Positions 4,194 to 41,194 of a DNA stretch of 41,330 bases are shown one piece after another (within the stretch, counting starts at the first letter, position 1; every line of letters starts with the position of its first letter). Source of the stretch: Candidatus Methylomirabilota bacterium. Its GTDB lineage: Bacteria; Methylomirabilota; Methylomirabilia; Methylomirabilales; JACPAU01. Location: contig JAKEHP010000218.1 in assembly GCA_022614955.1 (NCBI GenBank), positions 1 to 41,330 on the forward strand, read 5' to 3'. The position numbers and the translations under genes were made by a program. The notes beneath the pieces are model-generated. The model was given only the letters and a program-made list of their open reading frames with translations, was not told the origin of the DNA and did no database searches.

Positions 4194-4248
4194 GCTCCCC
4201 AGCGCCTCCCCCGGAACAGATGTTTCCGCTGTCCCCCCCGCCCCCTGG

Positions 4249-5022
4249 CTAGGCGGGGGCGGGGTCGCGGACACGGTAACTCCGCACCCCCCACAGGGAC
4301 AGCGCGCAAAGTCCGACGGCGGCCGCCCAGATGTGGTCGGCACTCACCAGGCCCCCAATCCAGATCGCATCCGCCTGGACCGATGCCGTCAGCCCTCGCA
4401 AGACGGCATACCCCGTGGCATACACGAGCGCGAGTTGGCCCTCGAAGCGTTGCCGACCCCGGAGGGTCATGAGGAGGCCGAACAGGGCGAGATCCCCGAT
4501 CGCCTCCTACACCTGGACGGGATGGAGCTGCACGTGGGGCGGCGCCAGGCCGTTCGGGTCGCTGTAGGTCACCCCCCAGGGAAGAGTGGTCGGAACTCCA
4601 TACGCTTCGCCGTCAAGGAAGCTGCCCAGGCGGCCGAATGCCTGCCCGAGGATGAGGCCGGGGGCAAGAACGTCCGCGAACCGCCAGAACCCGATCCTAC
4701 GCCTCCGGGTGAAGAGGATCGCCGCGACGGTCCCGCCGAGGAGGGCCCCGCAGAGGGCCATCCCCCCTTGCCAGCGCGTGAGAATCTGAACCGGATGCCG
4801 CCCATACCAGGCCGGGTCGAGGAGAAGCACCTCGTAGAGGTGGGCACCGGCCACGCCGCCGAGAAGCCCCCAGAGGGAAAAGTCGTGCACCAGGTCCGGC
4901 TCGAGGCCTTTCCTCCGCGCTTCGGCCGCGGCCACGCGGGTGCCAACGAAGAAGGCAAGGATCACCAGGACACCCCAGGACCTGATGCTCAGCGGGCCGA
5001 GTTGGAACAGCACCGGATACAT
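4249..5022 (-). pseudogene. lgt: Lgt-like prolipoprotein diacylglyceryl transferase interrupted by an in-frame TAG
   Basis: MYPVLFQLGPLSIRSWGVLV...GQAFGRLGSFLDGEAYGVPTTLPWGVTYSDPNGLAPPHVQLHPVQV-TAG-EAIGDLALFGLLMTLRGRQRFEGQLALVYATGYAVLRG... The same frame continues past TAG (4507-4509) to the family-like C-terminus ending at 4249. Confidence 0.75.
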
Positions 5023-5055: not shown

Positions 5056-5724
5056 TCACTCGTCAGTCGCCTGGGCCCCAAAACCGGCCTGCCTCACGGC
5101 GCGCACCATATCCCCAACCCCAACCCTCTTCTTATCGTACTGGACCCGAGCCTTCCCGCTCTCAAAGCTCACTTCAGCCTTGCCGACTCCGGGCAGCCCC
5201 TCCAGGGCTGCTTCCACGATCGTGGGTCAGGTACCTCAGGTCATGCCCTCGATCCGGAGCCAGGCCGTTGCCTCGGTGGAGGCGTGCTGGCGCTGAGGAG
5301 GAGCCGCCGTCTCTTGCGGCGCCATCCCCGGCATGACATCGGCGCCCCCGTATCGGGCGATGAGTGATGCCGTGTATCCCGGAAAGGCGGTCAGGGCAGT
5401 GGCGGCCACCAGCACGACCGTCGAAGTAATCAGGAGAGCCAGATTCAACCGCCCTGCCGCCATACGGCAGGCCAGGCGCTCGCACCGCCGCCTCTCACGA
5501 AAATAGAGGGCATAGCCGAGCGCCACCCCGGCAATGCCGATCGGGATAAGAATGGGGCTGTACTGCATGGTGGTTACCATGAAGGCACCTGTCCCGAGGC
5601 CCAGCACGACCACGAGGAGCGGGAGCAGACAGCAGACCGACGAGATGGTCGCAGCCAGGTTGCTGACGATCCCCGCTTTCAGATTGGAGATTCCCACGGT
5701 CTCCCGCCTTCTCCTTATGGGCAC
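5056..5724 (-). CDS. MerT-MerP fusion (mercury transporter plus HMA domain), candidate selenoprotein with two in-frame UGA (UxxU)
   Basis: MerT-like TMs with SSVCCLLP and CERLAC. After TEATAWLRIEGMT come TGA (5236-5238), GGT ACC, TGA (5227-5229), then in the same frame PTIVEAALEGLPGVGKAEVSFESGKARVQYDKKRVGVGDMVRAVRQAGFGAQATDE and TGA (5056-5058). This is a full HMA domain with GMTCxxC read as GMT-U-GT-U. Confidence 0.85.
5193..5211 (-). promoter_or_regulatory. Candidate bacterial SECIS hairpin
   Basis: Minus-strand RNA GCAGCCC-UGGAG-GGGCUGC: 7 bp perfect stem, 5-nt loop with G at loop position 2. The loop starts 22 nt after the second UGA and 31 nt after the first, compatible with known bSECIS spacing. 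Not folded computationally. Confidence 0.5.
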
Positions 5725-40794: not shown

Positions 40795-41194
40795 GGCCGG
40801 AGTGGGCCTGTAAGCCGGATTCTGTACGGGCCGGAGCCCGTGGTGGTCATCCCTCTAGGCCCGGCGTTGCCGCCGCGCTCCAGCGGCCTACCCGGGGGCT
40901 CGGGCGGGCCACCCTCCCGCCGGCGCCTTGCGGCCCCGGCAGCGCCCCCCTATTTGGCCTTGCTCCAGGTGGGGTCTGCCGAGCCAGCCTGTCACCAGGC
41001 TGCTGGTGCGCTCTTACCGCACCATTTCACCCTTACCGAGCGGCCTTGCGGCGGCCCGGCGGTGTGTTTCTGTGGCACTGTCCTCGGGGTCACCCCCGCT
41101 GGGCGTTACCCAGCACCCCGCCCTGTGGAGTCCGGACTTTCCTCCCGCGGCCCCGCAGGGGACCGCCGGCGACCACCCGACCCACTCCGGCCGC
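40795..41194 (-). ncRNA. rnpB: RNase P RNA (bacterial type A)
   Basis: Minus strand contains GGAGGAAAGTCCGGACTCC near the 5' end and CAGAATCCGGCTTACAGGCCCACTCCGGCC at the 3' end. P1 pairing GGCCGGAGTGGG/CCCACTCCGGCC is visible at the two boundaries. Confidence 0.93.

Follow-up and report, generated by a model that had tools for sequence, protein, structure and literature searches.

The 41,330-nt stretch of Candidatus Methylomirabilota DNA analysed here (contig JAKEHP010000218.1; hereafter the window) contains, on its minus strand, a hairpin that is most probably (we estimate a probability of about 0.87) a bacterial SECIS (bSECIS) element inside the reading frame of a fusion selenoprotein of MerT/MerP-like (HMA) type, where one element would serve both of the in-frame UGAs that precede it. 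This reading is supported by sequence comparisons, in which the hairpin is conserved, covaries, is tied to the presence of a UGA and holds the same position in genes with UxxU, UxxC and CxxU motifs, and by the presence of the Sec machinery in the genome.

Table 1. Coordinates of predicted features in the window
Feature	Position	Strand	Details
MerT-HMA fusion selenoprotein gene (predicted)	5056..5697	minus	GTG start 5697-5695; 213 codons; terminator UGA 5058-5056
MerT-like membrane part	5401..5670	minus	PF02411, residues 10-99; cysteine motifs SVCCLLP and CERLAC
HMA (heavy-metal-associated) domain with UxxU motif	5080..5259	minus	PF00403, 51.6 bits; NF041115, 84.7 bits
UGA-1, first U of UxxU (Sec codon, predicted)	5236..5238	minus	aligned to Cys/Sec of homologues
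UGA-2, second U of UxxU (Sec codon, predicted)	5227..5229	minus	aligned to Cys/Sec of homologues
Small alternative hairpin CCAC-GAUC-GUGG	5214..5225	minus	not conserved; judged not functional
bSECIS hairpin (predicted) GCAGCCC-UGGAG-GGGCUGC	5193..5211	minus	arms 5211-5205 and 5199-5193; loop UGGAG 5204-5200
Conserved hairpin core	5209-5205 with 5199-5195	minus	closing pair U5204-G5200; apical GGA 5203-5201
lgt, next gene	4201-5022	minus	Pfam LGT, 154 bits
RNase P RNA, bacterial class A	40795-41188	minus	Rfam search of the window

The gene and its predicted product

Both UGAs lie in frame within a single minus-strand gene, and the metal-motif region of its predicted product reads ...RIEGMT-U-GT-U-PTIVEAALEGLPGV... 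The MerT-HMA fusion protein belongs to a known kind, though it passes none of the curated cut-offs of the three NCBIfam models that rank highest for it, namely NF041115 UxxU_metal_bind (cut-off 95 bits), followed by the MerTP fusion NF033556 (80.3 bits over residues 14-207, cut-off 180) and NF045683 MerT_CopZ_Se (56.1 bits, cut-off 375). NF041115 is listed as a metal-binding protein, putative mercuric reductase, with UxxU and 2 Sec (PMC13188914). It shares with our protein the HMA domain with UxxU, and it is also the top model for most of the homologues tested, with 40.6-93.4 bits on eight representative sequences; the difference is that the HMA domain is fused here to a MerT-like membrane part, which itself scores 21.2 bits with PF02411 (MerT), under the cut-off of 32.9. 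NF045683, a MerT/CopZ fusion-like heavy metal transport selenoprotein, likewise combines a MerT-type part and an HMA domain in one selenoprotein, but its low score indicates a distant and different fusion. With MerTP and with separate MerT and MerP, the protein shares the order of MerT followed by a MerP-like HMA domain and the vicinal cysteines in the first membrane segment, whereas a predicted Sec pair replaces the Cys pair of MerP. The transported metal may be Hg(II) or another soft metal; mercury is only a guess from homology, because no MerA passes the cut-off in the genome (best match 370.5 versus 454.45 bits).

In the neighbouring lgt gene, an in-frame TAG is found near 4509-4507, in HPVQV-stop-E where Tyr is expected, and Lgt-like sequence resumes beyond it; this TAG is a sequencing error or the mark of a pseudogene, not a Sec site. 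It makes error or decay in this contig conceivable, and the two TGAs of the fusion gene could be sequencing errors themselves, or belong to a pseudogene, or reflect a genome-wide reassignment of TGA. We regard these explanations as extremely improbable, since this pair of TGAs is also found in dozens of homologues belonging to several phyla, since the frame closes at a normal UGA, for which the best downstream hairpin reaches only -4.5 kcal/mol, and since the full Sec machinery is encoded in the genome.

The hairpin and its chance level

In the bSECIS model, the element is an in-ORF stem-loop whose loop of 3-9 nt has a G in the first two positions, mostly as N1-G-[G/U]-N-N2, at a spacing of 16-37 nt from the UGA and with an MFE of -7.5 or lower (PMC13188914); for the stem, we took an upper stem of 4-16 bp as the criterion. 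The window hairpin lies in the ORF, its stem starts 15 nt past UGA-2 and 24 nt past UGA-1, and its loop starts 22 and 31 nt past them, respectively. An earlier note on this DNA had described a 7-bp stem with a 5-nt loop at these two loop distances, and both the structure and the spacing were confirmed by the minus-strand coordinates. The note had also proposed folding the RNA, and when the 19-mer was folded with ViennaRNA, the first and last nucleotides of UGGAG (U and G) paired as well, which gave 8 bp, a 3-nt GGA loop and -13.8 kcal/mol. The hairpin therefore has in common with the bSECIS consensus its place in the ORF shortly 3' of a UGA, the loop type (here U-GGA-G), the spacing and a stable stem. 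It differs in that one element is in range of two UGAs located 9 nt apart and that its position is fixed across UxxU, UxxC and CxxU genes. No SECIS match to Rfam was found within the window at the gathering threshold.

Taken alone, the hairpin is weak evidence and no more than suggestive, as a chance origin would be unlikely yet possible: hairpins that pass a loose bSECIS filter (our own implementation, modelled on the published description) trail 14.6% of the 838 TGAs on both strands of the window, and 1.4% are trailed by one of -14 kcal/mol or better. A more specific form of this doubt is that the conserved A-L-E-G-L protein sequence, in a GC-rich genome, yields the hairpin as a by-product without RNA function. 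The stem does overlap conserved codons, so that the amino acids fix some of its pairs, and the figure of 14.6% also speaks for this view. However, when AALEGLP was recoded at random with synonymous codons at local codon usage, the 7-bp stem arose in 2.7% and the 5-bp core in only about 7% of the codings, and the homologues described below make this explanation very unlikely. An expected-count test gave 3.7 expected of 47 genes, but these genes had been chosen for having the core, and the class-wide set was therefore relied on instead; on that set, in which the gene type was defined by the protein only, a stem arising from protein sequence and codon bias alone was rejected.

Conservation and covariation in Sec-encoding homologues

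When 148 genomes were searched, of which two thirds belong to the window's class, about 20 MerT/HMA homologues with two in-frame TGAs were found, and a pattern scan of species genomes yielded 37 loci, distributed among Methylomirabilota/Rokubacteria, deltaproteobacteria and Myxococcales, SAR324, Acidobacteria, Planctomycetes and a few others. A gap-free alignment (A1) was built from 49 distinct Sec-encoding genes of the window type. In all 49, the loop-to-UGA spacing is that of the window hairpin, and RNAalifold picked exactly the position of this hairpin and no other. In A1, the conserved part spans columns 39-44/48-53 and consists of 5 bp and a U-R closing pair; this closing pair is present in 49/49 sequences, and the core pairs together with it are standard throughout save for one cell (in L059), while the two outer stem pairs are standard in merely 14/49 and 35/49 homologues. 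Because the hairpin is conserved in homologues, its origin by chance is untenable.

Compensatory changes were also found. At the top of the stem (columns 43/49), C-G is replaced by U-A in 12 sequences, and the pair next to it occurs also as G-C and U-A. Cells changed on both sides numbered 33, compared with 10.9 in shuffles, and this signal was lost when the partner was slid. On the HMA tree, columns 43 and 49 need 4 changes each and the two sides always agree; at this covarying position a single independent pair falls on well-supported branches, a number too small for a test by independent pairs. The choice of Leu codon tracks the partner base, with CUG pairing with GGG/GCG and the rare UUG (4% of Leu codons) with AGG/AAG, which is not what a by-product of the protein sequence would lead one to expect. 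The loop U-G-[G/U]-N-[A/G] is found in all 49 sequences, even where the E codon has become an L, S or A codon. Thus the comparison across homologues that had been suggested in the earlier note, here with n=49, found stem, loop type and spacing to be conserved.

That note had also drawn attention to a smaller hairpin between UGA-2 and the main one. It is present at 5225-5214, but the weight given to it was misplaced: it is not conserved, with 50% of its cells paired, equal to shuffled columns, and it was rejected as a functional element.

Genes with one UGA or none

Since a strict Cys/Cys pattern gave controls in only 1 of the 148 genomes, the pattern was relaxed, and the 95 genomes of the window's class were examined with a pattern that ignores most of the stem. 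The 61 genes found comprise 40 that bear a UGA, 9 of an AYG type (set apart as a subfamily, see below) and 12 Cys/Cys genes. The full hairpin motif is present in 40/40 of the UGA-bearing genes and in 0/12 of the Cys/Cys genes, although the latter share the ALxxL frame (Fisher p 5e-12, computed ignoring the relatedness of the genes). The 40 Sec genes are 22 UxxU, 14 CxxU and 4 UxxC, and the hairpin position is identical in all of them. The UxxC genes (L082, L083, L101 and L102), which are split between two separate clades of the HMA tree and have UGA-1 alone, keep the hairpin at 31 nt (4/4), and the CxxU genes, with UGA-2 alone, keep it at 22 nt (14/14). A Cys/Cys gene nested in a CxxU clade (L118, SH-aLRT 96) is without the stem, as would be predicted if loss of the UGA is followed by loss of the hairpin. 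The genome of the window itself encodes a second Sec HMA gene, a CxxU paralogue (L076, genome G000, C306:2137-1943, minus strand) whose MerP-like product has a signal peptide and GMVCAA-U; in this gene, too, the element is found at 22 nt, and one of its pairs is compensated.

The simplest reading of the single hairpin position in UxxU, UxxC and CxxU genes is that a lone UGA-1, a lone UGA-2 and the two together can all be served by one element. Together with the covariation and the Sec machinery, this lends support to the suggestion of the earlier note that one bSECIS might recode both UGAs. A transcription terminator or attenuator lying in the gene by accident would also be GC-rich and stable, but this alternative is hardly credible, because no U-tract follows the hairpin on its 3' side (CCGGAGUC), and conservation concerns the G[G/U] of the loop and the spacing from the UGA, with the motif absent from the Cys/Cys homologues.

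Five Planctomycete UxxU HMA genes (L038, L051, L060, L064 and L072) are without the window-type U-G-[G/U] hairpin; inspection by eye revealed in them a 6-bp hairpin with a CG[GU]GN loop 34 nt past UGA-2, and an additional hairpin closer to UGA-2.

Selenocysteine machinery

The genome contains SelA, SelD and a SelB with winged-helix domains, the last on the same contig as a tRNA-Sec with the anticodon UCA, so that the components expected beside a bSECIS element are all represented. Because the MAG is fragmented (624 contigs) and contaminated (8.33%), the tie between these genes and the window contig rests on binning. SelD has an in-frame UGA of its own (GAG-U-ACK), with a C-GUC-G loop, seen by eye, about 16 nt on; a crude script for a SECIS in this gene gave noisy output.

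A proposed single element for two UGAs

In the mechanism that we propose, SelB loaded with Sec-tRNA(Sec) would bind at the apical G[G/U]N and would deliver Sec when the ribosome meets either upstream UGA. At its distances from the two UGAs the stem would still be foldable at both decoding steps, and a single element could thus serve them in turn to produce a Sec-x-x-Sec metal site, with both insertions presumably made in one chain. Alternatively, the hairpin may serve one UGA only, in the simplest case UGA-2, which is 22 nt away, with the other read by means of another signal or acting mostly as a stop, which would give a MerT-only product ending at UGA-1. Two consecutive recoding events are expected to be inefficient, and the AYG-type genes, in which tandem hairpins might provide one element per UGA, could be taken in the same sense. 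Nevertheless, service to one UGA only is rather unlikely, because the UxxC genes, which have UGA-1 only, retain the hairpin at 31 nt, and the alignment contains no second conserved hairpin.

The AYG type is a second UxxU HMA family (GMxU-xx-U-AYG[AV]xKAL) of Acidobacteriota and Methylomirabilota, found at L041, L047, L119, L120 and other loci (alignment A2). Its genes have two tandem hairpins, with loops 12 and 31 nt past UGA-2 and 21 and 40 nt past UGA-1, the second of which has a UGGA loop and compensatory pairs, and these possibly represent one element per UGA. In several Methylomirabilota (L047, L119 and L120), a one-hairpin UxxU gene, located beside MerT, adjoins a two-hairpin AYG gene, which suggests a shared metal-handling locus.

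The tandem hairpins of the AYG family argue against one element for two UGAs as a universal arrangement. It is conceivable, and we offer it tentatively as the less probable case, that two successive Sec insertions 9 nt apart are both driven by one bSECIS, with the SelB of this lineage accepting either 22 or 31 nt, while the AYG-type genes instead use two tandem hairpins, one for each UGA, so that these would be two evolved solutions to Sec-x-x-Sec decoding. In the literature that we found, there is no established account of how two close UGAs both get recoded.

UxxU metal-binding selenoproteins are already known (NCBIfam), and Sec-x-x-Sec sites have been predicted in several bacterial families; it is the natural controls with one UGA or none that are the interesting part. 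The same domain occurs in nature in UxxU, UxxC, CxxU and CxxC form, and the hairpin accompanies every form except CxxC; these constitute ready-made evolutionary controls, with which spacing tolerance and double recoding become directly testable using natural sequences. The finding also supports the view that mercury-type transporters in Methylomirabilota and their relatives probably have a metal site formed by a Sec pair.
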